Part shown: positions 1,499 to 25,250 of the stretch, one piece after another
Layout: the number at the start of each line of letters is the position of its first letter
How positions within the stretch are numbered: position 1 is the stretch's first letter
Origin: Zychaea mexicana
Lineage: Eukaryota; Mucoromycota; Mucoromycetes; Mucorales; Lichtheimiaceae
Direction: 5' to 3'
DNA: 64,000 bases
NCBI RefSeq assembly: GCF_025766255.1
Contig: NW_026516674.1
Location: 558,001 to 622,000, forward strand
Position numbers and translations under genes: made by a program
Notes under the pieces: generated by a model
The model's database searches: none
The model's input: only the letters and a program-made list of their open reading frames with translations
What the model was told of the DNA's origin: nothing

Positions 1499-2095
1499 CA
1501 ACTTGAGGAATTCAAGCCAATAGTCTCCAGTTCAAGCGATGGCACAATATGATTGGCCTGTAAACTGGGAAATTTATGGCTGCTGCTTTGTTTTTTCTGG
1601 CATACCCACGGACCCCGCGAAACGCGTTCGAATGCTTGCTGCCATGGGAATGTTTTTTAGCCAGAAACGCAAGTCCACTAATGATTGCTACGTACGAACA
1701 CAGCGGTTGCTATCGTCTCTTTTGACTGATGGTCGGAGCTATCCAGGCACACACTTCTTTTGGTCACTTTCCATCCGCAGCAGACGGGACAACCAGTCAG
1801 ATTCCCTTATTTCCCATCATCGTTGTTTTTTTCTCCGTGTTCTACTACCATGTTACAATACCGATTGGTGTCAATTTGATAAACGTGGAACGATTTTATT
1901 GGGCTTGGGTAACATGAATGAGGTTGGTCGAAATAATTTTTCCACAAATGTAGTCAGTGTATTAGTGATGATTTCAAATGTTTCAAAACAGTCATAGAAA
2001 ATAGATTTAATACTTACTCCAGAGTCCGTGGCTTCCGCGCTGAGTAAAAGCACTGTCCTCTTGGCCCCAAGATACAATCGTAGTGGAATTTTCGA
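1499..2095. other. Intergenic, calreticulin promoter side
   Basis: About 600 bases between the divergent-side promoter of calreticulin and the 3' end of the decayed Fanzor gene. An open frame at 1539-1997 (+) has no recognisable features, runs through promoter DNA and is not called as a gene. Confidence 0.5.
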
Positions 2096-5000
2096 CTAAT
2101 TCCTATCATTTTCTAATGCTAAAATATTGTTTTCCGGTTCCTCCTGTTCTTCTTGATCTTCTTGAAGTTGCGCTTGTTGAGGGAGCTGTCCACCTGGTGG
2201 TAGGAATGCCTCTGGTCGAAAGTCTGGATGTCCATCATTATTCATATAGGCTATGCCTATGCTTCTTATGTTCAATGCCGCATTTTTATCCCGGTCTACA
2301 ATCTAGATGAGAAAACAAAACTCTTTTAGCATATGATAGGCAGAATCCTTCGTGGGTTTAAAGGGTGAAAACATACCACAGCCTTTGGATAAAGCTCTGG
2401 ATGGTTATTACAAGCTTTAATCTTCCACATCACCCAATCTATTATGGTATTCCATGCCAATTTAGTACAGCAGAACACAACTACTGATTATATACCTTAT
2501 TAGTAGAAATTTGCCTTTACCTGGCGGTGGTGGGCGTGCCTGTATACAGTCACTTGCCGGATTCAACTGGTCTCGACAGTACTTTTATTTTCCTTTACCT
2601 CTTTGGAATGAAGCCGCCTTGAGGTCCTTCAACCCAGTACGTTGCACGTTCTCTTGTTTTTCTGCATGGATACATAGGTAAAAATGATCCCGTCAGTCGT
2701 TGTAAGTGGGCTTCTTAAAGCGGGAATTATGTATAGCAATCAGATATTATATTATTACGTACCTGTGTCCGCAAACCTCCTCGTCATATGGAATACTTGT
2801 TAGCCGTTGCTGACACCCTGCGTGAACTTGAGAAGTGTTGTACTCGTCCGTCAGTATCAGCAGCATGTGTGAAGCCAATTTTTTAATAAGTCCCTAAAAT
2901 ATACATTACTCATAAGTGTATGGCAACCTCTTTGCGCATTCTCTCTTGTAAATATACTAACCAAATGGGGGATTGGGGCCCATCCCGGGAAATGCGGCAT
3001 TCTGCTGGAGCCATAGAACACAATCGTTGGTCGTTGATTTGGGTGCCAACGCTCGCGTTCTCGCCTCAAGCGGGCAGCTCTTTTGCGAGATCGGTGCGAC
3101 GTTTTGTGTATCCATTTGATAGGCTCTCCCTATGTTTCAGTTTTTCAAAAATGATCATCAGCGTATTATCAGATATCACGCGAGAAAAATGGAAAAAGGG
3201 AATCGCTTACAGCTGGGTGAGGAGGAGTGACACCTAGCAGCTCATCTTTGACAAGATCTTGTTTTCTCTGCCGGCTTGAGAATAACAAGCTCCTGATTTC
3301 TCTGTGTTTGAACCCAGACGAGAAACGACGCATTCTATATTCTTGCCGTTATTATATGCCCTTGTCACCAACTCGCCTAGCATTGATTAGCCCTTCTTCT
3401 CCTTCCTTCTCCTTCCTGCTACTTACCGAAGTCGAAATCGATTCAGATTAGCGATATAGAAAAGAAAATCTTCTGAACGTGAGACATAGGGCGAGTTCTC
3501 TGCGATGGAGTCATAATCCTCTTGGATTTCGGCTTTCTGCCGATTTTTGTTTTCTAATTTATATTCCCAAAAGACACCCGTTTTCGCACTTTGCATTGAT
3601 TTTTTTTAGTCAAGAGCTCAATGTAGTGTGAGGCTTATCTATTATATACTCTTTTTCAAGACAACTTACTGGTACTTTCGCGTGGTAACTTCAATTGGGT
3701 TGTGTACAGGTTCTTCAGCAGTCGATACTCCTGTGATCATCGACGACACACCTATATCATCAATTACAAACGTAAAAATCAGTGGGAAAGAAATGATGCA
3801 ACAAGCCCGCAAACTATTGTACTCTTCGTAGTACGCCATACCAGGATCGACTCCAACAATTCGACTTTCTTCGGCACGCTGCTGAGTTAGGCCATCCGGA
3901 TTCAACTCGAGTCTGTATACACCATGGCTCCAATTTGTTAAGTCTTGACCTTCGGGAAGGCGTCTAATTTCATCGTGTGTACTTGGAAATAATTCTTCAT
4001 GGCGTGTACATAGTATTGTTTTGTCGTCAGCGTGACATTCAGCTTTAGCTCACAAACTCCAAATTATTAAAGCAGGATTTATGCTTGCCTGGACTATTCC
4101 CGATAAACTTTTCGAACTGGACGTGTACCATACATCCATCCGTAGTCGCTGTATGCTTGAAGCTTAGCGCGTTGTGTGCAAAGGGGTTTTGATCTATAAA
4201 AAAAATCGTATAAAAAGGATCAGGATGCGCATATACATAGAATGTATAATATTATTCGCTAGCCACCACTAAAAGCACTCACAATCTTGACCGTATCGGC
4301 GGCGGTTTGGTTTTATGTGATCAATATCGAAAACCGTTTCCCATAGCTCCTGGCACCAGAGCGGATTGCTTTCGAGTGTCTGCATCTTGAAATCGACAAC
4401 GGTGACCCGCCCTATACACACACAGAAATATAAGAGTAAGATTTCAAACACTAATATATGGGAGAAGCAAAGATACAAAAGCTGACCAATACCTCTGCGA
4501 GCAATATGAGCGGTGCCGGATTATTTCGATTCTCCATTCGTGCTCTTCTCACTAACAAATACAAAGTACGAGTATCCAACCGAAAGAACCCCGTTTGATG
4601 GGAACCTAATGGCAATAGTGGCCAAGGGCGTGCTCGTGGATAAGTTCGTTCGGAATATTGAAGCAGGTCGTACGACAAATGCAGAAGGGAGATGCATAAA
4701 TCTTCTCCCATGTTGCGAGACCGCACACGAATTATGTCTGTGTCATGGAGCAGCTCTTGAAAGCGACCATGAATGAAGCTATCAACCAGTTCACAACAAA
4801 GAATCAGCATATATATCGCAAACTGTTATCCTGTTTAATATAAGCTTACCGATACAATCTTCCCAATGATTGATCATGAACTACAGTCAACCCCGTTAAC
4901 GTCAACCCCGATAACGTCAACCCCCGACAGCGTCAACAGATTCGCTGGTACCCTTTCAAATTTAGCAGTTAAAGATTTGCCTATGCTCTACCCCCGGTGC

Positions 5001-6204
5001 TCGTCAACCCTCGATATGGTCAACACTTTTGCTGGTACCCTGAGGGTTGACGTTAACGGGGTTCGATTGTACATTGTTGGGATATTCGGCTTCATATTAA
5101 AAAATGTTACTTGTTAATACTCGTGCTGTTCCGACATGATATTAGGACAACGAGTTTCGTAATGTATCATATTGACTAGTAAGTACAATAATATGCATAT
5201 GTAGGATTCTTTCTACCTGCTCTTTCCAGTTGATTTCGGTTGTGTAGGAGTTGTTGTAAAGCACCCTTCCAAACTCGATTCATGTAATCCTTGATATTTA
5301 GGACATGCTCTCTCATATCTGGCATAAAATAAAAACGATGAGCTATCATATCTATTTTCCTTAGCTTCATAGTGCTTTTATATTCTGTACTTGAGCCATA
5401 CTTTGCAGCGCCATGCCAGCAAAATTGTTTGCTAGCGAATCTCTCAATGACCCAGGAGCAATATCCTCTGGCTCGAAGTATTCTAATATATCATACAGTA
5501 CACATGCATCAAATAAACAACGTTTAAACCATTGTCACTGATATACTGCTCTGTTAGATTTTAAATTGAAATGTTGCAATCACTTACGTTCATTATTGTG
5601 TGGTTTAGTTCTTTCTGCGACAAAGATTGCTGCCGTGCGCATTAGGTCTTCTTTCCATGGTAGCTATTGGATTATCGGATGTTAGCACGAATTTTGGAAT
5701 AAATATGTAGATAAATATTGAACATACAGGAGGAACTCACGTTCAAAAAGAATCCTGGTAATTCGTCGTGGAATCCGTACGAAAGCACTTTGAACGCAAT
5801 GACCCAAAAGCCTTGCAAAAACAACGGAGGTGCATTATGATAATAACCCTCAAAGTGACGCCTGAGGTGCAAAGAAACAAGATTGTAAACATCTTGTTTT
5901 CGGAAAGAAACCAGTTCTGATGTTTGTCTTAGGATCGTCTACAAAAAAGATGTACAATCATCAGCCTCAACATTCAGGAAGGATAATAATAAGCTAAGGA
6001 AGTTAAAAGTGAACGTACTCGGAAAAAGTGGTATTCGCCATGAAGAAATGCTCTAACCGAGCAAGGTCGAGTTACGACCCGCGTTCTCTCGCCAAAGCCG
6101 TTGAACTCTACAAACGGCTCTGGGATAGCGGGAACAGGCTCTTGGACAGCGGGAGGAGGGGGTTCTTCAGGGATCTGTGGAGGCTCTTCAACAACTGATG
6201 ACAT
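2096..6204 (-). pseudogene. Fanzor-type (TnpB-like) RNA-guided nuclease gene, probably inactivated
   Basis: Eukaryotic TnpB homologue, about 845 codons. Exons on the minus strand (inferred): 6204-6019, 5938-5741, 5663-5588, 5482-5391, 5307-5217, 4880-4850, 4778-4477, 4411-4283, 4193-4089, 4048-3842, 3751-3670, 3588-3427, 3334-3211, 3129-2962, 2893-2763, 2661-2521, 2480-2377, 2302-2096. Phases fit from the first exon to 2763. Seen motifs: RuvC-I RIVGVDPG split by an intron (3842/3751), followed by a TTRKY helix start; a VFYGSSRM segment at the RuvC-II position; TDEYNTSQ followed by VHAGC, then CGH and CC/C pairs of a zinc ribbon; and RuvC-III DRDKNAALNI near the end. Lesions: exon 2661-2521 is not open in a phase that suits both neighbours, and in the frame that joins best it carries a TAA at 2585-2587. 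The first zinc cysteine is also a histidine. The N-terminal half has no named domain. The 4088-4049 intron would use a GC donor. The family assignment rests on RuvC motifs and zinc ribbon order, not on a search. Confidence 0.7.
4884..5069. mobile_element. Pogo/Tc1-like MITE, 186 bp, TA target duplication
   Basis: Non-coding element flanked by TA on both sides (4882-4883 and 5070-5071). Its terminal inverted repeats are about 25 bp: the left end starts CAGTCAACCCCGTTAACG, and the right end, read in reverse, starts CAATCGAACCCCGTTAACG (one mismatch and one indel). Inside are further copies of the GTCAACCCC unit. There is also a direct repeat of 23 bases (4932-4954 and 5019-5041, sharing GCTGGTACCCT). 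CAGT/CAAT ends and a TA duplication suit pogo/Fot-type or other Tc1-mariner elements. It sits inside an intron of the Fanzor gene, touching its 3' splice site. Confidence 0.75.
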
Positions 6205-6781
6205 GCGTATTTTAAGAATGGGAGAGATTTGGAATGAGCCGAAAAAGAAAGAAAGAAAAAGAAACTGACGGTTTTATACGGTGAGGTGATGGTTTCATGC
6301 AAAGTTGTCATTCTCATGGGACCATTGTATATGTATATCATATGACGTGTTGATTTAGCTCAGAGGCATGCTTTGAATATTCATGTTATCGGCTTACCAT
6401 ACAGAGCAGGAAGTGCAGCGCGCATGAATGATTTGGTGCACAAAGTGTCCTCATTGTCATCCACGAGGGTTCGGCTGTTAAGACAGAAAACCATCAAACA
6501 ATAAAGAAATGTATCCACACTGGAATGAGCTTCGACGAATGCCTTTTATCATCCGTGATGGCAAATAGAATAAGAACAAGTTGTTATTCTTTCAGTGATA
6601 AATAGGTCAACTTCAATCCGAGTTTATATCAAGTCATGCCGAGTGTTACTCCTTACTCTTTCCCAATCGCCCACCGCACGCCCGCTTCGTTTTGCTCAAA
6701 AAGAATGCATGGTAAGTTACAATAGAAGCAAATGAGGACTTCCCAAGTAGTAGACAGTAACCCTCTATATTTTTTCCCCAG
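6205..6781. other. Shared upstream region of two divergent genes
   Basis: About 580 bases between the start of the decayed Fanzor gene (minus) and the Myb-like gene (plus). No ORF is supported. A GT at 6712 and the AG ending at 6781 could mark a 5' intron of the plus-strand gene. Confidence 0.4.
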
Positions 6782-7175
6782 ATGACCAAGTCAACTACCA
6801 AAGATCCTTTCGCTGATCAAGAAGTGACTACATGGAAGTCCCAAAAGGCTCGCGCCTGGGAGCAACGGCATATGGTACGAGTAAGAAAAAGGAAATCACA
6901 AAAACTTGTGCTCACTCATACATCTCTTTTAGAATGCGGAACAGTATTATCTTCACCAAGTGGATCCAGGCACGATGATTAACATTGGACAATTTAATGT
7001 TGCAGAAAAGGAACAATTTCAAGAAAGGCTTCACGAATGGGAGGAGAGAAATCTCGTCCAGAGTTCTGCGTGGGGGGGGGCATTTTCTCTTTCAATACCA
7101 GGCAGGACTGGAGTACAGTGCCGCGAACGCTACAAAAACATGGTCAAGGAAGGGTATACAAGCAGTTCAAAATAA
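6782..7175 (+). CDS. Small Myb/SANT-like DNA-binding protein, possibly truncated
   Basis: Two exons, 6782-6874 and 6933-7175, encode about 111 residues. The second ends in a Myb/SANT-like third helix, FSLSIPGRTGVQCRERYKNM: regularly spaced aromatic residues precede the PGRTG.QCRERY core that marks this fold. The start is the ATG directly after a possible AG acceptor, so a short 5' exon may exist. The frame stops at TAA 7173-7175 but stays open in the same frame for about 40 more codons. There a second repeat seems to begin (ESWGTQETRQLENHID) before a GT at about 7299. The gene may therefore once have carried two repeats and now be cut short, or the annotated stop may be the true end. Its target is unknown. 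It faces away from the Fanzor gene, with no shown functional link. Confidence 0.5.
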
Positions 7176-7892
7176 TCTTCATCCATAACTACTGCGGCAC
7201 TGCCTGACACTGAATTATCCGAATCGTGGGGAACCCAGGAAACACGACAACTCGAGAACCACATCGACTGCATTTATCAGCAATCGCATGGAAAGAGGTA
7301 CTCCTTTTCTACTGTTGTTTACCGGGGGTTTCGATAAACTAAGAGTATGATGATCTAAAACGTTCTGTCCTGGAAAACGCGAAGCCAAGTGACATCAACA
7401 TCAGCGGCCAGATAAGCAGTCGAAGTACAAACAAATGGCTTGCCAGTTGATTCCAAAATACCACCAGCTCCAGCCCATCGACCCGTACGTCCAAAGAAAG
7501 ACGTGCCCATTTTGTTTAAAAAGTTTTTTAAAAAAAGCTAAAGCCGCTTCTCTTGTTTTTGAAACAGCTACCAACAAAAAGAGGAACACCCAACAAGCAA
7601 GACCAACAAGTGAAAAGAGTTAGATTAGTCCTGTCACAAAAATCTATGAATTTGGATGAATAAAAGTCTTCTGTTATTATAGTACTGGGAGTGGGATAAA
7701 GACAAATAAGCACGTTTTAAACTTAGTGCCTGCATGTGCTTCATTGTCATTCATTTACTGAACGAGTATCTTCGATATGTCATTGTCTGCACTCAAAAAG
7801 CATATGACATAATTTGTCAAAGCTCAGCTTTATTGGATATTAAGGTCTAATTTCATTGGCTCGCCCAGCCTCATACGTACTAATCCTGCCTT
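7176..7892. other. Region downstream of the Myb-like gene
   Basis: Contains the in-frame continuation described for the Myb-like gene. A further plus-strand frame at 7435-7623 (62 codons, with CPFC) could be a relic exon of the same gene. Nothing else is recognised. Confidence 0.3.
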
Positions 7893-8620
7893 TTATTGCT
7901 TGGCTTTCTTTCCTTCATCGTCTGCCGCTTGTTCAACCAATAATGTGAGCATGCCACTCTTCATACTTTCAGGCAGAGCAGACACGGGCCGACGATGAAT
8001 CGGGTCTACAAATACATGGGTGAATCCGCCCACCATGCTCGCTTCTTGCTTGTCGCCTTCAAAGATGCCTACTCTGTAGGTGACGCTGGAACGCCCGATC
8101 TTGGTGATGCTCAGGCCTGCATGCAAGAGGTTCGGATAGGATGCCGGAGCATAGAAATTGGCCGAGGAGGCAATAACAAGGCCAATGGGTCGTGTCTTTG
8201 TCGTATCGTTGGGATCCAGCCCACAGTTACGTATTAAGTACTCGTTCACTACTGTGTCAATGTAAAAGTAGTAAATCGAATTGTTGATATGGCCGTAGTT
8301 GTCGTTGTCGCTCCATCTATTATATCATGTCTGGGTTTAGCCCTCCTTATTTCCCTTCGTCCACACACTCTGACACGCTGTTTCTCTCTCTCTGTCTCTC
8401 TTGTTCATTAAACCCGTCTTTTCATTTGTCCATTCTTATAAACGCAAGTGCGTATTGTCCAAGAAAGAAAAAAAAAGGCACACCTGGATTGAATGGGCAA
8501 AAAGTATTTGTAATTGCTACGATCTCGGAATGTAGGGGGTTTAGCTACTGCTGCTGTCGCTGAAGGTGTTTTGGTACCCATGTGTCGGGCAACCTGGGCT
8601 AATCGAGCTTGACCGGTCAT
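7893..8620 (-). CDS. Hotdog-fold acyl-CoA thioesterase (4HBT family)
   Basis: Predicted thioesterase hydrolysing acyl- or aryl-CoA esters. Exons 8620-8484 and 8316-7893 join in phase (CAG donor side, TAG acceptor) to give 186 residues. The junction recreates the signature WSDNDNYGHINN at about residues 46-58. This is the D..GH.NN motif of 4-hydroxybenzoyl-CoA thioesterase-like proteins, whose aspartate is catalytic. The following helix and sheet segments (IGLVIASSANFYAPASYP) fit the single hotdog fold. The start is ATG at 8620. The N-terminal 45 residues are rich in Ala, Thr and Lys and precede the domain; they could be a weak mitochondrial presequence. The C-terminus is lysine-rich. The substrate cannot be told. 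Confidence 0.85.
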
Positions 8621-8772
8621 TGATTGCAAGTAGCTTTATTTAAACGGAGGGAGAAACGGGGAAGCTTTAGGTTTTAACAGAAGGATGTGAGTCTAACTGG
8701 AAACGCTTTATATTGCCCTGGTTATAAGAGCCAACCCCCCAGATTTATTAGGAGTCCGTTGGATGAGTGAGG

Positions 8773-9078
8773 ATGTTCGACCACACATACTTCCATACGC
8801 ACACAGTTGGCCGCACTCATAATAAGAAACATCTTGAGATCCTATTCCTTCCAGCTACTATAAGGGCCAAAACGGTATATGCTCCTTCGTTGCTTACTAT
8901 GACCATGGCAAGTAAGTGCAGGATGAAGCATGTTGACATCTTCTCTTCTAATGCGCCTGCCTCACCCACACGGGAGTTAAAAATCTGGGGGGTCCACTCA
9001 GGCAATATCAAAAATGCTTACATTAACAGTATTGCGGAAATCCAAAAGCATGTGAGAACAATAGAAAACGCATTATGA
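8773..9078 (+). CDS. Hypothetical small ORF, 101 aa
   Basis: Open frame from ATG 8773 to TGA, between the thioesterase start and the TBC gene end. The second half (SPTRELKIWGVHSGNIKN onwards) looks moderately protein-like, with mixed charged and hydrophobic residues. There is no signal peptide, membrane segment or known motif. It lies in the region expected to hold the thioesterase promoter. It could be chance. Confidence 0.2.
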   Translation: MFDHTYFHTHTVGRTHNKKHLEILFLPATIRAKTVYAPSLLTMTMASKCRMKHVDIFSSNAPASPTRELKIWGVHSGNIKNAYINSIAEIQKHVRTIENAL

Positions 9079-9186
9079 ATTTAATTACACACAAAGAAAG
9101 AGAGATATACACTGTGTTTTGTAGCTGTTGTTGGAGGTATGATGGATGTGGTGGTATAGCGAGTGGTATTATATGTATTATGAGAA

Positions 9187-11748
9187 TTACGATGATGGTG
9201 GTGGTGGTGGTGGTGACAATGATATTGTTGATCTATCTACAGTGACGCTACTTCGCGGTGTACTAATGGCATGCCACATACGACCATAGATGGAGGATGA
9301 CTTTGATGCGGATCGTCGAATATCCACAGATGCCGATCGCACTTTGTTGTCAACAACAAATGGAGTCGTGGATAAGGGCTGCGCTAGGATTGCGTCGTTG
9401 TCGTTTTGGTATTGTTGTTGATCCTGATTGGCCTCATACTCGACAAGTCGAATCTTTGCTTCTGCTAATGATCGCTCCAATTCGCGTATCCGCATCACTA
9501 GATAAGTGTCAGACAAAAAGTCCTTGTTGCCTCCTGCTTCTTGTTCAATGCGACGGAAGTCGTCTGTGCTCCTACGTCGTTGAAGAATCTTTGGTGATCC
9601 CTCTGTTTGCGGTATGTGCTGTTCGTGGTGACTGATGATGCTCTTGTTGTCGTAGCTATAATTATTACTGTCGTTACTGATGTTCATGGCGGTAGCAAGG
9701 TCTTGTCGAACCAATTGAGTATGATCAAGCATCAGCTTGGAAGTTTTGGCCTTGATTTGAGAAAGCTGCTCCTTGAGCTCTGCATTGTTGCGCGTGACCT
9801 CAAGCCACTCCATATCTTTTTGCTTCTTTTCCCTCATGAGCTCATCCATATCTGCTTTGGTGGTGATGAGCCGCTCGACCAATGCCATCTGGCCATCGCT
9901 CACCATATCCAGTCGCACCTGTATATCTTCGTGCTCTTGCGTCATCTTTTCACACTGTTGCTGCAACTCAAAGTTCTCCACCTTGAGTCGAACAACCTCG
10001 GTCCTGAGCTGCTCTTGTTCGTCGTCCATAAGAAGCAATCCGTTGGAGCACGAAGATGCATCTTCGTCAGCAGACGATGCCAACGACAAGGGGGACAGTG
10101 TATTGTTGTCTGAAAACGCGAAATCGGCTTGACTGCTGCCTCCAATACTGTTGCAAGAAGATGACGACACGGACAATGCATAGTAGCTTTGTCGCTGCTG
10201 CTGCTGCTGCTGTGATTGCTGCTTGCTTTTTTCTAGTTCCAAGATGGTTATTTTCAGTGCATCCCGTTCGCTTTCGACGTCCTGCTTATCCATCTTGAGC
10301 TCTACCAACTGGTTGATCGTTTGTTGGTGTTTGGTATTCAATTGAGCTAGTGTCCAGGATAGCTTTTGGATTTCTTGTTCGTGGTGGTCTAGAGTGACGT
10401 ATTTGTTCGTATTCACCATGGCAGCAGCAGTAGCAGCAGCTCCTGCAGCAGCGGATGCTCCTCCAACACTATGTGTTCTCCGCAATGATGAAGACGTCGA
10501 ATCCATACTACGCTGACTACAGATGCTAGGTGATCGTTTCGCTTTACGTTTCCAGAACCTCTGCTGCTGATGCTGCTGCTGTTGTTGTTGTTGATGATGC
10601 TTTGGTTCGCTGCTGCTTACGATACCATGCGTGCTGTGATATTGATCGGCGAGGGAATCCATTTTGGCGCGAGTGATGACGGCAGAGAGAGATGTGGCGT
10701 CATGAATGACTTGAGCGTCATCGTCAGCATAAGGCTCAATGAGTTTGCGTGAAGTAACGTGGTCAAGGAGATCCTCAAACTCCTCTGTTTCCTGCAGGAT
10801 TCTATCCTGGGAGCGGCGTAGCATGGCAATCGCGACCCGCATGATCGTCTCTGCTGCGCCTTCGGCAAATACAATGTCATAAATACGATGCACCAGAGAC
10901 ATTGGAAAAACATATGCAAAAAGTGTCAGGAACCATTGGGAGGCGTACATGGCAGCATGCACTCCGTGCTTGTTCATATGTTTGGCAAGATTCGGTAAGA
11001 GTTCGTTCAGCAGACTGCTGAATTGGTACAATCTGAGTTGAAGGCCCGCCATATTAAACGTAAACATCGGTCGCATTTCGTACGTTTCCATCAGCCTTTA
11101 AAACATAAAACAAACAATTTAGAAAAAGGAGTTTTTCTTAATCTTCTAGGCCACGATGATAATAGAACTACAAGCAAATAGTATACGCCCACTGGGCTTG
11201 CTTATCATTAACAAAACACGCACCGAACAAAAACGCAGAATGCTTGTACTTCAGGCATCTATAAATAAAAAAAGGGAGAACATGTGATTCGTTGGGTTGT
11301 GAGCGCCATGTGTCAGAAAGCAAAAAAAAAGAGGGAGAGGGCTTCTCAACCAGCATCATCACACTATTTTACCTTTAACAGCAACGGACCGACGAGAAAG
11401 GCAAGGCCCTGACAGTATCCCACTTCAGTGTCGTACAAACTGTATGCTTCCAGGACCCGACGCATTGCCAGCTGACCCGCGCCATCTTCCTGTTTAAACA
11501 TGTCGATGCATGGGAACGTTCGAGCCAAGTCGCGCTTGATCATTCTTTCATGAGGCGATTGTTCACGGCACAGCTGGCCATAGACCGTCTCTAAATGCAA
11601 TGAAGCAGATTTACACATGGCTTGCCAGACCAAGCCTCGTACGCCATCCGGAACACCGGCCCGTAACTTGACAGAGAGTAAATGGGGCGTCATGGTTGCT
11701 ACACGATCGAAATCTTGGATCACAGCTTCCCATATAGAGAGATCTTCT

Positions 11749-11798
<50 letters not shown>

Positions 11799-12302
11799 TG
11801 CCGTTACGAGCTTGTGGACTGTCGATAATTGCGCTTTTAGTTCGTTGGATTGGAAACTGATGGCTTTGGGGTCTTTTTCCAATAGTGCGGTTTGTCGTTG
11901 GATTTGGGCAAGGATAAACATGGTCGAGTCCTAATTTTAGCACAAAAAAATCAATTGAGCTGATGCCATGTAAAAAACGTAATAATTTTTTGGGAAATCA
12001 TTGCTGTTGTTAATAATTACTTGAGGTGGCAATCGTGCGTTCTCTTGCTCTAACTTGATGAATAATCCTTCATCGTCATTATTGATTTCATTGTTGGCTT
12101 TCCGTGCACTGTTATTGTCGATGCTGCTGCTGCTGCTACTCCTGCTGCGTGCGCTCTGTCGGTTTGTAAACATAGAAGCATCTGCTGCCGTGCAATCTGC
12201 GTTTGTTGATGTAGTCCTGCTGCTGTTGACCTTATTGTCATTATTACTATTATTGGCTCTGCTCTCATTATGCTTGTAATTGCTGTCTTGACTGCTTTGC
12301 AT
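9187..12302 (-). CDS. GYP5: TBC-domain Rab GTPase-activating protein (Gyp5/EVI5-like)
   Basis: GAP that speeds GTP hydrolysis by Rab/Ypt proteins, acting in Golgi and exocytic traffic in this family. Exons 12302-12021, 11930-11373, 11258-11224 and 11095-9187 join in phase to 927 residues. The third exon is only 35 bases. A short serine/asparagine-rich N-terminus leads to DSTMFILAQIQRQ and a run of 17 Gln. The TBC domain follows: RAGVPDGVRGLVWQ, then RDLARTFP with the arginine finger, then TEVGYCQGL with the glutamine finger. Domain order and both catalytic fingers are intact. The C-terminal half holds another Gln-rich tract, a long coiled coil and a proline run before the stop, as in Gyp5 and EVI5. 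The symbol marks the nearest yeast family, not proven orthology. Confidence 0.88.
11748..11798 (-). repeat. Trinucleotide CAA/CAG tract, 17 glutamine codons
   Basis: Uninterrupted mix of CAA and CAG codons in the TBC gene, just before the catalytic domain. The mixed codons should slow slippage compared with a pure CAG run. Confidence 0.9.
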
Positions 12303-13071
12303 CGTGTTACTGATGGTATTTGGGATATAATAGGCCGTATATATATATTTAGATGAAGCGGGAATAGAAAGAAGAGTAAAGTATAGTCCCCTGGAAGATC
12401 AAAACGCTTTTTCAAGTGAAATATAAATGCGTGATGATGATTTGGAATGTAGCGTGTGAGAGAGAAATAGAAAAGAAGAAGAAAGAAAGAGAGACAGAGA
12501 CAGAGACAGTGAAATAAGACTGGAAAGTGAGGAGGCTGAAAAAATGCAAGGGGGGGGGCTTAAAGAGAGCTGGTGCGCGTGCGGACCAGTCAGAAACACC
12601 ACCCGAAAGGAGGCGGTTGCTTTTTGAGGGGATCCTGAACAGCAGCAACAAATTAGCACCACCCACCCCACTCGCATCTTGGCCATACCGAGCAATACAA
12701 CAGGCGTGAGCGCTTTTCTGAGAATGTTGCGCGTGTGTTTTCTCCTTGATCTCATATAACAGGTCTCCCTCTTTTCATATATTGTCATCGAATGAGCACC
12801 ACTCTAGCCGTTGCTGTTTATTGTTTATGCTGCTATTGCTGTTACTGAGGCGTATGCGCTGTCGTTGTCGTCATGGTGATCTCTAGGTTGCCCTGGTAAT
12901 CCCCAAAATTGTTTATTTTTATTGTTATTATTTACACAGTGCAAAAAGCATCTTATTTGTCCACTCCCGTCAGCTGCCATCCCACTGCGCGTGTCAACGG
13001 CGATGGAGGGATTTCAAAAAAGGAATAGCCTAAGCCAGCAGGTAACGTATAAACTTTTAGCTTTCTTCTCT
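12303..13071. other. Intergenic between the TBC gene and the glycosyltransferase-like gene
   Basis: Contains purine-rich simple sequence near 12470-12530 (GAAAGA/GACAGAGA) and TATA-like runs near 12340, the likely promoter of the TBC gene. The 13053-12953 (-) interval may be an alternative last exon of the glycosyltransferase-like gene. Confidence 0.4.
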
Positions 13072-14889
13072 CTAGTCAAGTTTACCAAGTACTCGTTCCA
13101 CCCCTTCCCCATATATCATAAACAACGTACCTTGACCTGCTATCAGTAAATCCAAGAGTGGCGACAACAATCGCTCATAATCCACCATTTGCGTCGACAT
13201 GAGCGTGTCGCCATCCAACACTTCTTTTGGTGCTAGTTCCAATTGGCTTTCAATCGCCCAAGACGCGTTAATCATTTCCCACAGATAAAAGTCCTTTCGA
13301 TAAAACACACACGGGAAATAGTCTAATATGGGCTTCAGGATCCTTGCAACGTCTTCTTGATTTTCACGTAGCAATGGATCAGCCGTTGGAGTGGCATTGC
13401 TACTGTTATCCTCGTCCTCGTCGTGCAACATCATGTATACGATTGGGAACCGTTCATCGACGTGGCGGCGATAATCCTTGCACATATCCAGCAAACGCCG
13501 ACGATCCAACAGGGGCTGCTCCTCCGATGATCCTTGCTTCTTTAATCGTTCTTGGTGTTCGTCCAGATAATCGCGTAATGCGGATGCCTGAACTGGCATT
13601 GCTGCCGATACCGCTTGATCAATAGGCATATTGCTAAACAACTCCATTGCCGCATCCCTGATAGCATTCATCCGCCGTCGGTTCATCAATGCTCTTGCCG
13701 CTGCTGCTCTTGTTTCCATTGTAGTTGTACTATTCTCTCCTTCCAGCTGATCGCCACCATCTGCATACAACCATTTGTCCGACTCTTCCTGAGGCACCAT
13801 CCGATTCAAATGAACTGTCAATCCACTGAACCCGCCTGCACCTCCCAACGCGTGCACGATAGTTTCTGCTGCAGCCCTCATTGGAAAGAGTTGGTCAGGT
13901 CGCACTAGCATGGTGGACGTCATGGCCACGTTCAAAATCTGCTGCTGATCTTTGACTTCCAGAGCTTTACGAAACATCCATGCCCCCAAGGCATTGCAAT
14001 GTACGTATGGGCTTTCCAACTTTTTCAGATCGCTCAGCGTGAATATACGCTTTGGTGGAGCTGGCAGGGATGAATCGACAACGACGTCCAATAGCTTTCT
14101 TCCATGGCCATTTACCGCTGATCCCGTTCCTTTTTGAAACCATTGCATGAAAAACCAAGGGTTTTTGCTTTTCGTCTTTTGCTGCTGTGCGTTGTTGCGT
14201 AGATGCGAATTGTGCGTTATCTCAACACGCTCATAGTATTCGGCTTGCTCGTATTCGATTGTCGGCAGCGGCGTTTCCCTTGATTCTGTTGGTGATGATG
14301 TTGTTGTAGCTGCCACAGGTCGATCAAAGATCCGGATCCCGAACGTCTGTTCCAGAGGGCTAAAATCAAACAACTTGGACCATGGGATATGGATCCATGT
14401 GCTGTTGCCGTACGCGAGTCGTAATGGAGGAGCTTTGACTGTTCGATTCGTCTCGTATGCAAGTCGGACTGCCATCCGTAATGCTTCATGCTGTTCTAAA
14501 TAGTCTCTAAAATAGTTCATTACAGTGCAGAATTGTTTGTTTTAATATTGTATGTATATGGAACTTTTTGTAAGAATTCATTGTTATCCCTCTTCATTCC
14601 CACCACGCTTTTTCAATTTTTACCCATGTGGACTGTATGATAAAAATCGTTCTTCTTGAGTCGTCGGTGGCGACGGCAGTGGTGGATGCTCTAGTAATGG
14701 AGGAGGAGGTGTTGACAAGGAGGTGTTTTCTGCGCTATTAAAAGGATTTGACAGCCAGTGTGGAGCGTTGCTCGGTTCTTGCAAAAGATTTTGGTTGTGT
14801 ATACGGGGAATGATGGTTATCCCAATGATAAAGCCTACGGATAGCAGTAAAGCAAGTCCTACTATTGCTCGATGTAGTCGTCGTAACAT
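13072..14889 (-). CDS. Type II membrane protein, O-fucosyltransferase-like glycosyltransferase
   Basis: Exons 14889-14624 and 14506-13072 join in phase. The N-terminus has a short basic tail and one membrane segment (about residues 9-27, VGLALLLSVGFIIGITII), a signal anchor typical of Golgi glycosyltransferases, followed by a Pro/Ser-rich stem. The junction recreates LSYSPHGDYLEQHEALRMAV and then AYETNRTVKAPPL. This is the start of the fungal GDP-fucose O-fucosyltransferase-like fold (a YxPH...Q...N segment at the nucleotide-sugar lobe). The rest is long, with insertions and no clear C-terminal signature. A consensus donor (GTACGT) at 13130 and an acceptor at 13054 would replace the last 19 codons with a 33-codon exon ending at 12953. 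Activity is unproven; 'glycosyltransferase-like' is the safe reading. Confidence 0.6.
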
Positions 14890-17800: not shown

Positions 17801-18990
17801 CAGGATGTTTGATCATTGCCGTTCGTTGCCAAGGAGGTGCCAATTAACTTTTTGCTGCTTATTTTGTTTGATTTCTCTTTTCCAAATCTTACTTTATTGC
17901 TACGGGCAGTGAGGTGTTAGGCAGTCTTCTCTGTCAACGCATCGGGGTCATTGTCTAGGTCGTAATTGTTATTATTACTGCTGCTGCTGCTGTTATGTTG
18001 TCGGATTTCATTTTTGCCTGAGAGGACGATCTTCTTTCATCCTTTACCAGCACGGGGATAACTTTGTGATAAAGATACAATGAACTTGCTGAAGTTTAGG
18101 TTTTTGTAACTGCCACATGATGTTAATAACATTTTAAGTTATAATTAAGCAACCGTATTTGCTTATTTGTTTACTCATATAAAATCAATCTATGCACGAA
18201 AAGGATCACCAAAAAAGAAAGTTCAATATGGTATGATCCCCTTGTATATCTTTTTACAGAAATAAGGTTAATATCACAGTGAAGAGGGAAAAGAAAGCAA
18301 AGTGGATGGGAAGCAGCAAAAATTATCGTTTCTTGACAGCCTAGTCTATGCTAGGTATTACAAGCAAAGCCATCGAGCGGGTGAGCCATCTCTCGACGCA
18401 ATGCATTCCCCTCGCATTGTTCACATTCCAGACTACTACACGTGCTTACTAGCCTTGTCTTTTTTGATGACCATTTCAAGCTACTCGTTTTATATAACTT
18501 GCTGTCTTTACTAGCAGTAGCGACGCCGAGCATATCGAAACAGTCAAAGGTCATACAAGGAGGTCAACATATTTTTCCCTGCGAGTGCGACATAAAGCTA
18601 CGTACAGTGCAGCAGAAGAATGAGGGCCGAAGAAATAAAAGTGTTCCATCACAGATCTGCTTCAAAACTCATCAATCGTTTGGATGTTGAAAGAGGTTTC
18701 TTTTGATCAATCACTATTAAGAGTATCTTTCACTGGGGATCTGCATCGTCCGTTTGGATTTGCGACTCGCAGAGACTTCAACTGATTGTGCAGTCTAAAC
18801 GGTATAGAACAAGTCGTTGCCGCTTGCTTATGATTTCATGCAAACTTTGTGCTAGCCGACTATGCACGCTGTCTGTATAAAATTGATCTCCCGCTCTTTT
18901 ACATCCACACATTTGAACCACGCGCTTTAAAAGACTGTCTTTCTGTTTTGCAGCACAAGGGTGGTGATTCGCTTAAAAAATCCATACATT
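14890..18990. other. Gene-poor, AT-rich stretch
   Basis: About 4.1 kb without a supportable gene. Short frames at 15279-15626 (-), 15840-16166 (+, TTG start), 16690-16935 (-) and 18302-18514 (+) lack motifs, good starts and splice partners. The DNA holds A-rich runs (17229-17241), GCT/CTG microsatellite near 17980 and TA-rich segments. This is the kind of sequence left by old transposon decay, but no terminal repeats were found by eye. Confidence 0.4.
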
Positions 18991-19017
18991 TGTAAGTAAA
19001 AGAAAGTAAATCAGTAC

Positions 19018-19332
19018 ATGAAAGATGGATCATTTACAAAGGGAAACTATACAATGGGGTGGAAGGGGAGCTTACGGTGGCAACAGTGCTGCCAGACCGG
19101 CCATCTAGATGTCCCAGTTGTAAATCTCGGAGGACTCATCAACATTGGATGCGTCAAGGAGACGGTCGTGTTCTTCAATATAGGCATCAATTACCCTGCC
19201 AATCTCCACTTCCAAAATCACAAATTACCACTTGGGCCTTTTGGAATCTTACAAAGCCTTGAAAGGTCTGTGGTAAACCACACTACTTTGAGATTGATCC
19301 GGACAACTCAACCCACTCCGACGTCTTCGTAA
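19018..19332 (+). other. Relic-like ORF cluster with a CPSC segment
   Basis: Two overlapping plus-strand frames. One (from 19059) carries RCPSCKSRRTHQHW, a treble-clef-like cysteine pair, and is then closed by a stop, after which the same frame reads on with KVCGKPHYFEIDPD. A TATAAAA element lies near 18876. The pattern suggests a broken gene or transposon fragment; no family is recognised. Confidence 0.25.
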
Positions 19333-19440
19333 CCATTAAAACGCAGTAGAGAGAACACCACACACACGGATGAATCAATTAATACATAATTAGCACCATA
19401 TCGATAATCTCTCAAACATGGATTACCAATCGAGAATAAC

Positions 19441-19788
19441 TCAGGACCAACCATTGTATACACATTGTCCTATTCTCGAGTTAGTCAGCACTTCCTTTGA
19501 ATCTAGCTTATCTGAGTTGAGCGAAGTGCACCTGTCAAAAAGCGGATACCAATTCCAACACTGACAAAGGTGAGACTTCACCAAACAAGGAACACACTGA
19601 TCAAGGCAAAGATGACTCTTTACAATTGCAAGACAACGTCTATTATCATAACCGACAAACTCAACCTTCCCATCCTTCTTCATCTTTGAAACATCCGAAA
19701 TCCGGCATGTCCGCGATCCATTCATCAGTTCATCCAAACGGAAGTCGAGACAACATCTACAACAGTATATAAAGGGTTGTGAATTCAT
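19441..19788 (-). CDS. Hypothetical cysteine-rich ORF, 115 aa
   Basis: ATG-to-stop frame on the minus strand with 11 cysteines, several paired (YCCRCCLDF, CLDQCVPCLV, CQCW). It looks like a small zinc-binding or repeat-derived protein. There is no signal peptide. It converges with the broken plus-strand frame at 19018-19332. It may be a transposon remnant; no family is recognised. Confidence 0.25.
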   Translation of the reverse strand: MNSQPFIYCCRCCLDFRLDELMNGSRTCRISDVSKMKKDGKVEFVGYDNRRCLAIVKSHLCLDQCVPCLVKSHLCQCWNWYPLFDRCTSLNSDKLDSKEVLTNSRIGQCVYNGWS

Positions 19789-20482
19789 ATAATAAAAATC
19801 ATTTTATATTTGACTCTCACTGTATTTCATATTGTCTGTTATTTCTATCTTTTACTCTTATTACCTATCCACAACCCACGTTTATCACAGACGGTCGTGG
19901 ATTAGTTTGTACTCGTTTTTATGGAATGACATCGACGCGCTTTATTATTGCCAGATACTGATTCAGCTATATATTGTAATGCTGCTAATTACATTGGTGA
20001 AAATATTTCCAAGGCACCACCAATAGCAGAATACTTATTCTCCTCCATGATCAAACTTGCGTGTTTTTCAGTTGTCTAAAGAGCCTTCTATATATGATCT
20101 AACAGGAAAAGACGGTAGTACTCTTCTAAGGATGCACGGACATAAACCAGCAGAAGTTGTCACTGCTTGCGCAATCGCTTGAGGAACCAATCAATATGTA
20201 GCGATCTTGACGCGTCACAGTAATGTCATCCGACCTTTTCGCGTCACTTATACACGTATACATACTGTCAAAGTGATCATTTGGCACTGCATCCCTCTTT
20301 CTCACCTTTTTTATTTTTTCTTCATTTCTATACTTCTCTTTGATGTTTAAGACCAACAATTTTTCCTCTAGCTGTTCAAAGTGGTGAGTTACGTGTTCCA
20401 TCGCTATATTTAAGAGTCTGTAAGAAGGTCAATAGCACACAGACTGACACACTGTAGTAAGCATACTTTACCGCTGTAGTCC

Positions 20483-23400
20483 ATGTCCAGCAGCAACCAA
20501 CGACCTGCAGCATTGCTGCTTGGTGATGGGGTTGTAGCAAGAGCAAGGACACGACGCCAAACAAATGACGATGATCCGGCCATCATCCTGGGGCTACTAG
20601 ATGAAGTACTCCTCGAGAAACTTGATCGCTTCCTGGAAGATCATCCGATAGTTCAGAAAAAGCAATACGCACCAAGATCGAAGATAAGCATAACTTGCCG
20701 TACGGGACGATGCAGAGTGTAGCGCGACTTGCGAACGAGCAGTACCAATTGAACATCAGCGCACAAGAAGCTGGCAATCTGTTGCGTACACGCGGTTGTG
20801 ATCCCAAGAAGCACTGGCAAACATTTTGGCTACAAAATCTACATGATCGCCTGTCGAGGGAATTGACTGACAACGACTCAGAAGACGCAGAACAGGAAGA
20901 GCCCGAGGACGTCGAACAGGAGGGCGGGCATGAATTACAAGAGAACACCGACGAGTCCGACTTGTTGTATCGTACGACAACACCGATGGGATTGCCAAAC
21001 ATATTACGCTCAGACGTCAATGCAAAGTTATTCCATCATACAGTCATCAGCAAAGCTAAAGCAATCACGACAAACATTTCAAATCTCAGCACCATTGTCA
21101 ACGCAACCATGTGTAAGCTGGCAAAAGATGACATTGTTCTCCATCAAGACGGAAGTGTTCGAATCTCGCCTGCCTTGACGAAACTCGATTTGCAGACGCT
21201 TCTACCCAACGAATACAAGATCAAAAACAAGACTGCACTAGACCAACAGCGTGAAATTTGTGTACCTATGGTCAATCAAGATTTAAAAGTGCTTAAAGAG
21301 GAAGAAAATGGTTCCAGATCGCCTCATCAACGTGATATCGAAGGGCTGTTATCAAAACGACATCGGCTCTATCTGAATTCGCACCACTTTGGGACAAAAA
21401 CCAGGACGACTACCGACACTATTCACCCTGTATGGCATACCCTTTGTTCCAAGAACCCCGGCTTGCCAGCAGCACCATCAGGCTTGTCAGGAACGATCGA
21501 GGCGTCGATAAACGAGTACAGCACCAACCTCAACAACATGTGGGCGAGCGATAAGATTTTTAAAGCAGCCCTACATCATCTGACATTGGATCTGTTGCGC
21601 ATCAACTTGGCGACAAAAAAAGAGAAGGAGAACGTCGAAAAGGCCGAAAAACTTGTCAAGGATGCGCGGGAGCATGAGGAAAAAAACAGAAATACACCAA
21701 TCAAGTATACTATCCTACAACTGCGGTCTAAGCAACGCCACGAGTGCCGGCAGATAGCGAGGCACCTACAATTAGAAAGTCAATATCCAGAACAAACAGA
21801 AAAATTTGCTCAACGAATCAAAGCATGTATGCATCGGTTAGACAAGATCGTCACCCAGTTGAAGGAGAAGGTATGTTTCTTTTGAAATGGACTGTATGTA
21901 GAGTGAATTCTACCAGCAGGTGTATCCTAATATCGCCATTGTTGAGTTGCTTTATAGAAAGCCCCTGTTGGAGAAAGCATTGAACCAGAGGAGGAGGAGG
22001 GACCTCGAATAAAAGATGACCAAACCAGCCTTGCTTTTGGTGATGAGGTAAAGCTTGCTTTCTATGTTACACACTCTGCTCAAACCCTCTTCATGATTTT
22101 CCAAGTTTATATGTTAGAGACTCTAATTAAACATGTGGTTATTAGACTGTTGACTATATTGAAGATGAAGATGGTGACAGTGTTGCTTCTAGTAACGACG
22201 AGATTGAACTTGAAGAGGTTGGATTTTTTCTCTAAATTAGCTTTCATTATCCCTTGTTATAGCTTTTATCTGATCTATACTGTTTATCTACTAGCATTCG
22301 CTACCTGTCGTTGACGAAAACGGAACCATCCAATTAGGCAATCTGGTTACTACTATGGCTGACCGTGAAGCTGCGCATGAAGATGAAACTCAAGATATGG
22401 AACTGTCGCAACAAGAAGCACAAGTTGATGAACTGTCTGAACAACAAAGAGCCCAGGATAGCACACCCAACGAGCAGAAGACATCTTATTCGCGTATCAA
22501 GTCGTTGCAAGGTCTACTGAAAGCGTTATTACGTTCACCGAGTATACCACGAGACCGAGACGTAGAAGAAGCTCAAATCACGGAGTTCACACGAATGAAA
22601 AGCCTTGCTGCATGGGAGGTCGCAGCTGTGCAAAAGATTGCCAACGCACTTTTACCATTCACGCCCGACGACGAAACCCGATGCTTCATGACAGAGCTTC
22701 CATTCGTAGTCTTATCAAATACGATTCTATCTGCTATTGGCTACAAAGACCATATTGTCGATATTCATCCTGATGTTGCACCTCACAAGATCCACGTGCA
22801 GGCATTGACACCAGCAATCATGTACGAGATTTTGACACCTCATAATCGTGGACGGGCTCAAGGTCAATATCAAGTGCTAGATGACCAGACCAATCCCATT
22901 ACATCGCGTGAACGAGCTCGAGATAACCCCGATGCTATGCTATGGTCCTTCTTCGATCAGTCTCGTGTTGAATCACTAGCGGACCGACATCGCATGGAAT
23001 TCTGTAATCGCATTATCGTACGACCAGACAAGACCGTATCAATCGTTGGAATCATGAAGGAAGGCTGTGGGCCGTTGGTCTCTGCATATGAGGAACGTCA
23101 ACGAAAGCGACGAAAGAAGGGAGGTCGGTCAGGAGCGTCAGCAATCATTGGGACGACCGATAAGACGCTTGAACAGTTACAAGCTGATGAAGAGCGGGCA
23201 ACATCGAGCATAAAAGAGCTACAAAGAAGACATGGTGTTCTAAAGAAAAAATACCGACAAACCGCCAAGGAACGCAAAATAGCCAAAAAACGTTTTCAGT
23301 TTGCAACCAAACATGAAAGAATCGAAGCAAGTACCGCACTATCGATACGTGTGCGTGAAAATCGGCAAGCTAGGCTCGCTATGCTGCTTAATCATCGTGA

Positions 23401-25250
23401 TTTGAAGAATGAAAAGAGTCGTAGATACAAGACCCAAAAGGTAATATTATCCTCTCTGGATTTCTTTAACACATGTACTGGTTGTTGATTGATACGTTCC
23501 CATTATTGTAGTTTATCGAGCAGGCGAAAAACAACAAGAAAGACAATGCCGCTGCAACTACTGTCCCAGCAATAATACCGACTGTGCAAAAGCCTCAGTG
23601 CGAAGATACAGCTGCTAATATTGATCTGTCAAATTATTGCCCATTGGGTCAAGTCTACGGTGGTACAGACTACGGTCATGTTATAATGTCCCAGACAACA
23701 GCCTTAACCAAACAAGATGTTCTTTTCCACGTCTCTCTCTACAACGCGCAGCAAATTCATCGGCAGCAGCCAAGATTAGCCGAAGCAGGCTCGCTTGGAG
23801 CAGATGTATCAATCAACCAAGCGTCCGACACGTCTTCACCCTCTGCAATCCCGCGACACGATGCCACACAAGCAAATATGAAGAGGGAAGGCATGGATTT
23901 AGAACCACCACCTCCAGCGAAGCGCCAGACGACCTTTGATTTAAAAAATGCTGTCGGAAGTTCTGAATTGCACCTACAAGAACAGAGTGACGCCAAGCGG
24001 GAAGGATCTACATTGGAAGAGCAACAACCACCAGCAAAGCGGCAGTGTTTGCATAGTGATGCTACAACATCTCATCAAAGCCCGCCACCGCATATATCCA
24101 AAAAGGAAGCAATACATTGCAGCTGGGTCTTGAACCATGTTGAAAACGGATCCATCACAATGAGCCACAAAGGACGTATACGGATGTCACGACAGAATAT
24201 TCAGCAGATGCGGATTCTGTTGGACCGTGAGATGAAAGCTTCACCGCAGCAAGAGCATCAGGACCAGCGTCAGGACCAGCAGCTACAACAACAGCAGCAA
24301 TATATTGATCTTGAAACGCTTACAGTCAAGGACCTAAAACTACCCAAGCCATTCACAATCACACACGAACAGATCCATGAAGCGACGAAAACAAAAAAGT
24401 TCATGGTGAGGCAGGAGAACCGGCTGAAGAAGGTATGTTCATGTAAAATTGTTGTACGCATACGTGACAGTTTACATACTTAGCTTATCTTGCTTTAATG
24501 TTTATGAACTACATTGATATACAGCCTGAGAATGAAGAAGTGCGGAATGCTCTCCACGACTTACAACAAAACTGCTTCGTTGGCATCTGCGATCCAGTGG
24601 AAATCTTCAAAAGGCAAAAAGTCAGGCTACAGCATGTCGACGTTCTACGCAAGTTTTATTATTCCAACGCTGCCCTCAATGAACACCGTCACCGCGAAAT
24701 TGCTACAAGTCGTCTTTATACGCAACTTGCGACAAAGGAACGCCAATACGTCAGAAGCACAACTTCCAAAAAGCTAGGAATCCCATCCAAAAACCTGCGT
24801 CCTGTCATGTGTGTTGGCCTTGCCGGCACAGGCGTAGGCTCCCATCTACGTGGGCGACCTCGGCGCGGCGGCCGCAAGATGCGCAATGAACATAGAATTT
24901 GTTGTCCGGTGGTATTGCAGGATGAATATCGAACTAGTCAAACCTGTCTCTTCTGCTTTTGTCCACTAGTGATGGCAACGGCAACCAAGGCTACAAAAAA
25001 CGGTAAAATCAAGTCAGTGAAGGTCCATGGCGCTCTCCAATGTGTCAACCCGGATTGCCCTGCGGTGCGTGTCGGGTACACTACCTTTAGTCGTGATTCT
25101 CTCTCGAGTACGGCCATGATCATCGCTGCTGTTACCCAGTTATTCTCCCCTACCAAGTCACCTCTTCCCCCTTTCGATCCTACCAACCCAACACAAGCAA
25201 GTTTTACATTTTCACCTGCCTTTTTGCAGCATCCATCATATCATCTTTAG
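20483..25250 (+). CDS. Large Fanzor-like (TnpB-like) nuclease gene with one frameshift
   Basis: Six exons: 20483-21870, 21958-22047, 22146-22217, 22295-23440, 23512-24432 and 24525-25250. The first exon switches frame near an A5 tract at 20657-20661. One added base would make all six phases agree and give about 1447 residues; as it stands the frame stops at about codon 79. The N-terminal 900 residues have no named domain; they include an acidic linker (exons 2-3) and a coiled-coil Lys/Arg/Glu region. Exon 5 holds the RuvC-I motif YGGTDYGHVIMS (Asp about 952), two copies of a KREG..LE..PPAKRQ motif and a Gln run. Exon 6 holds a glycine-rich VGLAGTGVGSHLRGRPRRGG, then LQDEYRTSQTCLFC, a second CVNPDC pair and FSRDSLSSTAM (RuvC-III Asp about 1397). 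Motif order matches Fanzor proteins, far larger than the 400-700 residues usual for compact members. The frameshift may be an assembly error or real decay. Confidence 0.7.

Follow-up and report, generated by a model that had tools for sequence, protein, structure and literature searches.

The question raised by a 64,000-bp stretch of the genome of Zychaea mexicana (contig NW_026516674.1, positions 558,001 to 622,000; contig C13, 558001-622000, in the 50.3 Mb, 305-contig genome searched here, and hereafter the window) is whether two of its genes, A and B, encode members of the Fanzor family, the eukaryotic homologues of the nuclease TnpB, and how two such divergent members came to lie so close together. 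An initial annotation, made from the letters alone, had taken both for programmable RNA-guided nucleases. Our analysis indicates that both genes are very probably descendants of Fanzor1-type proteins, carried as cargo by mobile elements of their own (elements A and B) and now decayed. Genes of this kind are already known; the element carrying gene A and the TDYG-bearing branch to which gene B belongs are variants of it.

All of the motifs proposed in the initial annotation are present, in the order and at the positions given there. Gene A reads GVDPG ... DEYNTSQVHAGC ... DRDKNAALNI, while gene B reads GGTDYG ... RRGG ... DEYRTSQTCLFC ... SRDSLSS. Because the zinc ribbon and the RD motif are so short, the matches could conceivably be fortuitous. 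However, the combined pattern of D-x-G, E-x2-[TS]S, ribbon and RD, which fits A, B and three of four relatives (the listed protein of the exception, P0004, ends early), arises in 0/20000 shuffles of A and 1/20000 shuffles of B, and the relatives (E 3.5e-36 to 4.5e-81) retain the catalytic residues, which already refutes chance and leaves it a negligible probability. Some particulars required correction: gene A comprises ~830 codons in eighteen exons, against ~845 claimed; its zinc ribbon begins HxxC, not CxxC; the RuvC-I aspartate motif of B reads DYG, not DPG; and the glycine-rich segment is weak in A. Protein searches found relatives of the two genes only in Circinella minor and Fennellomyces, both of the Lichtheimiaceae (Mucorales), and in Lunasporangiospora (Mortierellales).

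Gene A carries the published Fanzor fingerprint, which consists of a DPG in RuvC-I, described as 'near exclusive', and a glutamate positioned six residues N-terminal to the zinc finger (PMC10711439). The DPG occurs as GVDPG in the window, GADPG in the copy on contig C112, and GVDPG and GLDPG in the relatives, and A, P0003 and P0004 share the arrangement E-x2-TSQ-x-H-x2-C, which places the RuvC-II glutamate six residues ahead of the zinc finger. The ribbon (HxxC...C, with histidine replacing the first cysteine) is followed by RD in A and P0003 (DRDKNAALN and NRDTNAAKN, respectively), while the listed P0004 protein ends before this point. Furthermore, the TDG motif of Fanzor1 is found as TTDG in A and P0003 and as SDG in P0004, its placement in the WED domain being presumed. 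Of the signature D-x(125,275)-[TS][TS]-xx-zinc finger-x(5,50)-RD, A shows a fitting spacing to TS (467 to 667) but has a histidine in the ribbon. When residues 395-800 were used as query, two Fennellomyces proteins with 43 and 46% identity were identified; the whole protein returned nothing at E <= 0.001 among 7992 candidates scored. In the model based on the C112 copy, introns are GT-AG but for one GC-AG, and this splice brings back agreement with the Fennellomyces protein (NSPELFPSTHDEIRRL versus AEPERFPTVRADLHRL); an early model with an apparent frame shift before RuvC-I was dropped once the relatives revealed this intron. The ribbon of A is split by introns, and of the 386 open segments in the window that reach 60 amino acids only the last exon of gene B holds the ribbon part whole.

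For gene B, the sole PDB sequence at E <= 1 in each search was Fanzor1 of Spizellomyces punctatus (chain in 8gkh), matched by the last exon (open stretch 24468-25247; phmmer, E 5.7e-4), the spliced protein (E 5.5e-3) and a three-row profile (E 7.1e-4). TnpB and Cas12 structures are likewise available in the PDB. The alignment spans DEYKTS, the C4 ribbon and the RD helix, such that E541 and D606 of the Spizellomyces protein (SpuFz1; PMC10432273, PMC3627910) correspond, while RuvC-I lies outside it. In the three aligned rows of B, the Circinella protein (42% identity) and the Lunasporangiospora protein (33%), D893 (TDYG), E1281 (DEYRTS, six residues ahead of the zinc finger) and D1338 (RD) are invariant, as are the ribbon residues C1288, C1291, C1320 and C1325, which precede RD. 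A long insertion separates RuvC-I and RuvC-II in B, and owing to it the spacing in the published D-to-[TS][TS] signature is about 390. Two alike basic stretches occur in this insertion, PPPPAKRQ (23905-23928) and PPAKRQ (24028-24045), which may serve as nuclear localisation signals. The Parasitella parasitica protein PpFz1 (PMC11423790), which did not turn up in our sequence searches, is likewise a Fanzor1 from the Mucorales whose RuvC domain holds an insertion; in PpFz1 this is described as a cyclophilin-binding domain.

Several observations weigh against this assignment. The TnpB-type zinc ribbon family PF07282 matches A below threshold (E 0.0046; 17.5 against a curated cut-off of 26.3), NCBIfam gave no match to A, and PDB searches with A, whether as the whole protein, the C-terminal half or a profile, returned only unrelated chains. 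No TnpB or Cas12 match to B was found in Pfam, RuvC-I of B reads TDYG in place of DPG, and no [TS]DG is present in B, P0001 or P0002. The profiles of A and B compare weakly (hhalign probability 1.7%, E 0.029), in the right register and aligned at the glutamate motif, and the structures predicted for P0003 and P0002 from two-row alignments (pLDDT, predicted local distance difference test, 31 and 36) were left unused. Of the relatives searched singly in the PDB, P0003 returned only unrelated chains and P0002 none. A PHROGs scan gave nothing useful, and searches with both alignments for giant-virus relatives yielded 18 and 146 pattern stretches with 0 confirmed. The placement of both proteins with Fanzor/TnpB is nevertheless supported, for B through the Spizellomyces match and for A through the fingerprint and TDG. 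The weak profile comparison also bears out that neither A nor B is a recent copy of the other, and they look like old, separate branches.

The TDYG of gene B, invariant in 3/3 rows, and its missing TDG could also mean that B, together with its relatives in Circinella and Lunasporangiospora, belongs to a separate eukaryotic branch, derived from TnpBs with a displaced glutamate and D-hydrophobic-G, a clade described in PMC10711439, and is not Fanzor1 proper. We consider this unlikely, given that the Spizellomyces Fanzor1 is the only relative by sequence in the PDB and matches through the ribbon and RD helix. Since DPG is called 'near exclusive' and D383 of SpuFz1 has N385 two residues on, we read this feature as not absolute. 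The occurrence of the TDYG branch in two Mucorales genomes and one of the Mortierellales suggests that the published DPG fingerprint misses some Fanzor-like proteins.

Both genes are carried by mobile elements, as Fanzor1 proteins are, which is evident from their copies, their ends and, for A, target site duplications. Throughout the genome, copies of element A have the same two end points, with twelve matches to the right end and eleven matches, in ten places, to the left end, the window included. Among the seven copies with both ends, 7-bp duplications are perfect in five (window, C112, C267, C270 and C258) and imperfect in C255 (6/7) and C81 (5/7); the terminal base of the element is ambiguous in C270 and C267. 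The copies in C258, C255 and C81 (96% alike) have one common internal deletion, joining 3599 to 7528, and each lies at a different site. This derivative thus seems to have moved after losing most of the gene, and hence to have been mobilised in trans by a transposase, as we infer. In the element A family, several insertions have been mapped, target duplications are present and one deletion derivative has been amplified. A transposase was found for neither element; none of the open reading frames (ORFs) of element A, judged by eye in the window, is transposase-like, and its copies were not searched for transposase domains. A two-exon divergent ORF shows a Myb-like match (PF00249, E 0.0035; 17.9 bits, Pfam cut-off 24.4), and four other copies differ from the window at 11, 3 and 19 places on codon positions 1, 2 and 3 of exon 2, a pattern suggestive of past coding; in exon 1 these numbers are 6, 2 and 4, with length changes in some copies. 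ATGAGG(C/T)TGG occurs near both ends of element A, yet 76/500 shuffles score as well and inverted repeats are not claimed. A distant relative of the RuvC-II exon of A (C45:44152-44286; 53% identity, E 1.7e-8) lies away from all copies of element A found.

The window copy of element A lies where a gene of the thioesterase family (7893-8324, minus strand; PF03061, E 5.6e-11) has its stop codon, and since the duplication contains this stop codon the host reading frame survives. The last exon of gene B has 37 protein matches in the genome, including the window (30 places by grouping), the weakest of which may be other Fanzor branches. Together with the right ends of element A, these support the earlier suggestion of a lineage rich in this family. 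The nearness of A and B, from which that suggestion was drawn, is best read as two independent insertions, because both have copies of their own at other places.

Eight insertion sites of element A, from ten left-end places (C2 and C305 were left out and C273 gives the left side only), align as (G)C^AAANNNN. C at -1 and A at +1 and +2 occur in 8/8, A at +3 in 7/8 and G at -2 in 6/8, while the strongest other column (-10; A in 6/8, 0.85 bits) is near noise with eight sites. There is no mirror of this motif at the far edge of the duplication: the T that it would need at +5, +6 and +7 and the G at +8 are found in 4/8, 1/6, 0/7 and 4/7, respectively. From a dimeric transposase one would expect a symmetric site preference; a one-sided motif is the trace expected of an RNA-guided nuclease that reads a motif beside its target. 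A conserved CA before the left end, putative TA duplications and a measured CATA motif are described for SPu-1 of Spizellomyces (PMC10432273, PMC3627910). In our reading, the conserved CA and the duplicated TA together make up CATA, and by analogy the corresponding motif of element A would be CAAA. Fanzor1 guide RNAs have been reported with the target duplication inside the predicted scaffold, and by the same analogy the guide for element A would start inside its duplication. That CAAA is the motif read by the Fanzor of element A is offered tentatively, and is on balance doubtful; the site motif may instead reflect a transposase preference. Were it correct, the nuclease would help to choose or keep insertion sites, and Fanzor motifs could be read from any multi-copy element. 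With CAAA, the element A family offers a concrete candidate motif that bears on the role of Fanzor for its host elements.

The six closest copies of element B, including that in the window, share the same 3' end and are 96-100% alike over the last 165 bases, while distant copies (78-89%; C50 75%) are alike up to ...GAG(T/C)GCC and then diverge, mostly with an A-rich start; C234 reads GAGGGTC at this end and dropped out of the 3'-end alignment. The 5' ends differ between copies. In the window, C68, C190 and C201, element B is joined to a long terminal repeat (LTR), and upstream of the start equivalent to that in the window C201 continues for ~120 bp and C68 and C190 for >1 kb, including a chromodomain (PF00385, E 2.2e-8, ahead of the LTR in C190), while C57 and C243 are shorter. 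The LTR has at least 41 further matching rows in at least 36 places by grouping (40 of 119 candidates scored). Some of these form pairs within a single contig (C99, C107, C131, C254) with ~5.6 kb between them, and the LTR is thus probably derived from full elements. An ordinary solo LTR upstream of B is unsupported, as the LTR flanks differ. Exact and inexact matching in six copies revealed no convincing target duplications of element B. An 11-base repeat, AGACGGTCGTG, occurs at 19160-19170 (~100 bp before the LTR) and 19889-19899 (at the LTR end). A stretch of ~7.5 kb interrupts the C201 copy, whose two parts overlap by 6 bp (20779-20784 in window equivalents); this overlap looks like the target duplication of another element.

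The precise single 3' end, the varied 5' ends, the kept introns and the absence of a detected target duplication raise the question whether one-ended, Helitron-like rolling-circle copying, instead of cut and paste, accounts for the spread of element B. Bao and Jurka described 5' truncation with intact 3' ends in the Fanzor families CRe-1 to CRe-3, as well as shared 3' and different 5' regions in MCi-2 (PMC3627910). However, no canonical Helitron end was recognised (Helitron genes were not searched for), some of the 5' breaks may be later damage, and by eye the start of C57 adjoins the apparent end of another repeat. Rolling-circle copying is accordingly a serious possibility, if not the probable one.

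Judging from family likeness, the ancestral Fanzor1-type protein would have bound an RNA transcribed from the element's 3' end and some 15 bases of flank, and with it would have cut matching DNA beside a short motif; such a cut at an empty site would aid persistence of the element. The last 129 bases of element B, a candidate scaffold for this RNA, fold better than 200/200 shuffles (z -3.5), with AATAAAT in the flank predicted to pair with the internal GTTTATTG. Without the flank (96 bases) z is -1.9 and 9/200 shuffles are equal or better, and with two-sided change in 1/12 pairs covariation is too little. Less favourable to this mechanism, three stretches of the element A 3' region fold no better than shuffles (194/200, 198/200 and 158/200 equal or better), which makes a simple structured RNA at that end less likely. 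No guide RNA was found for either element. These results, and an Rfam scan of the window in which no family reached its gathering score, would suit RuvC-fold nucleases that lost or never used an RNA guide, with the conserved 3' end serving the transposase only. Since A keeps the Fanzor fingerprint and the 3' end of B both folds beyond chance and is conserved to a sharp boundary in copies 75-89% alike, we regard such guide-free nucleases as very improbable.

Neither gene is intact, and the idea that the window copies now work as programmable nucleases is thus unsupported. Gene A is interrupted in 4/4 copies checked (window, C112, C267 and C270), in C112 by one stop only; compared with C112, exon 6 of the window copy carries a miniature inverted-repeat transposable element (MITE), and its exons 8 and 16 also differ in length. 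The site of this MITE is empty in C112, C267, C270 and C273, and it has at least 24 further genome matches that are 90-99% alike (40 of 93 candidates scored). By exon length differences, gene B is frame-broken in 4/4 copies checked (window, C68, C190 and C201); C201 was compared by its larger part and some of its listed loss is an artefact, while its later exons are also frame-changed. The window copy changes frame within exon 1, where it is one base shorter than C68 and C190. An intron placed in this exon by the automatic model was rejected, as this region is read as coding in C68, C190 and the Circinella protein. Most long copies of A and B are 94-98% identical (C273 of A is older, at about 89%), and both families thus moved not long ago. 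The dead copies in the window are a record of past activity and no tool.

Comparable elements have been described elsewhere in the fungi. SPu-1 of S. punctatus resembles element A in having derivatives without an intact gene beside gene-bearing copies, and a conserved motif at the left insertion point. However, it is ~2.1 kb long, with one ORF, 30-33-bp inverted repeats, TA duplications and the CATA motif, while element A is 6 kb long, with eighteen exons, no significant inverted repeats, 7-bp duplications and C^AAA. MCi-2 of Mucor circinelloides, as described in PMC3627910, resembles B in its near-identical ~6 kb Fanzor 3' regions, different 5' regions and lack of recognised inverted repeats, and resembles element A in duplications with fixed first and free last bases. 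Its duplications are 11-12 bp (ATAATTNNNN(N)), in contrast to the 7 bp, mostly AAANNNN, of A and the absence of any found for B, and one subfamily includes part of a Crypton transposase, where B is instead joined to an LTR. Fanzor1 is also cargo in the Mucorales elements MCi-5 and the MuDR-type ROr-4, PBl-3 and MCi-4 (PMC3627910), which differ in having putative ATTTAT duplications and Harbinger genes in three copies (MCi-5), or MuDR-like inverted repeats and 9-bp duplications (ROr-4, PBl-3 and MCi-4). A limited search of the Fanzor literature found no mention of a TDYG Fanzor or of a 7-bp AAANNNN duplication, which does not prove their absence.

Table 1. Features of the window (positions count from its first base)
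Feature	Position	Strand	Basis or remark
Element A, 5,990-bp mobile element	1901..7890	-	Bounds from aligned copies
Element A ends, gene strand	left GGCAGGATTAG... at 7890; right ...CCCAAGCCC at 1901	-	
7-bp target site duplication, left copy AATAAAA	7891..7897	-	Takes in host stop codon (gene end 7893)
7-bp target site duplication, right copy AATAAAA	1894..1900	-	
Gene A, Fanzor1-like, 18 exons	2096..6204	-	Hand-built on C112 copy, then lifted to window; consistent with Fennellomyces proteins
Gene A exons 1-6	6204-6019, 5938-5741, 5663-5588, 5482-5402, 5318-5217, 5125-4850	-	Exon 6 is MITE site
Gene A exons 7-10	4778-4493, 4411-4283, 4193-4089, 3994-3842	-	RuvC-I Asp in exon 10
Gene A exons 11-15	3751-3670, 3588-3427, 3334-3211, 3129-2962, 2893-2763	-	RuvC-II Glu in exon 15
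Gene A exons 16-18	2661-2521, 2438-2377, 2302-2096	-	RuvC-III Asp in exon 18
MITE, 186 bp, inverted ends, TA on both sides	4884..5069		In exon 6 of gene A
Divergent ORF of element A, two exons, 111 amino acids	6782..7175	+	Myb-like, sub-threshold
Element A 3' end, expected guide-RNA place	1898..2020	-	No fold beyond shuffles
Element B body with gene B	19890..25344	+	Left end not found
Gene B, Fanzor1-like, ~1447 codons	20483..25250	+	
Gene B exons 1-4	20483-21870, 21958-22047, 22146-22217, 22295-23440	+	Frame shift inside exon 1
Gene B exons 5-6	23512-24432, 24525-25250	+	RuvC-I TDYG at 23659 in exon 5; RRGG, DEYRTSQ, C4 ribbon and RD in exon 6
Element B conserved right end	25336 (...GAGTGCC), then AATAAATT	+	Common to six closest copies
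Candidate guide-RNA scaffold, element B 3' end	25216..25344	+	Folding
LTR (TG...CA), 621 bp, chromodomain LTR retrotransposon family	19269..19889	+	Joined to element B
Host genes around elements A and B	1-1500, 9190-14541, 27054-62422		Domain matches

The host genes neighbouring the two elements encode a calreticulin family protein, a pyridoxal phosphate (PLP) enzyme, an SNO glutaminase, an AMP-binding enzyme, an Atg22-like protein and ribosomal protein S8e. A further neighbour with a Rab-GAP TBC domain also carries a polyglutamine run.

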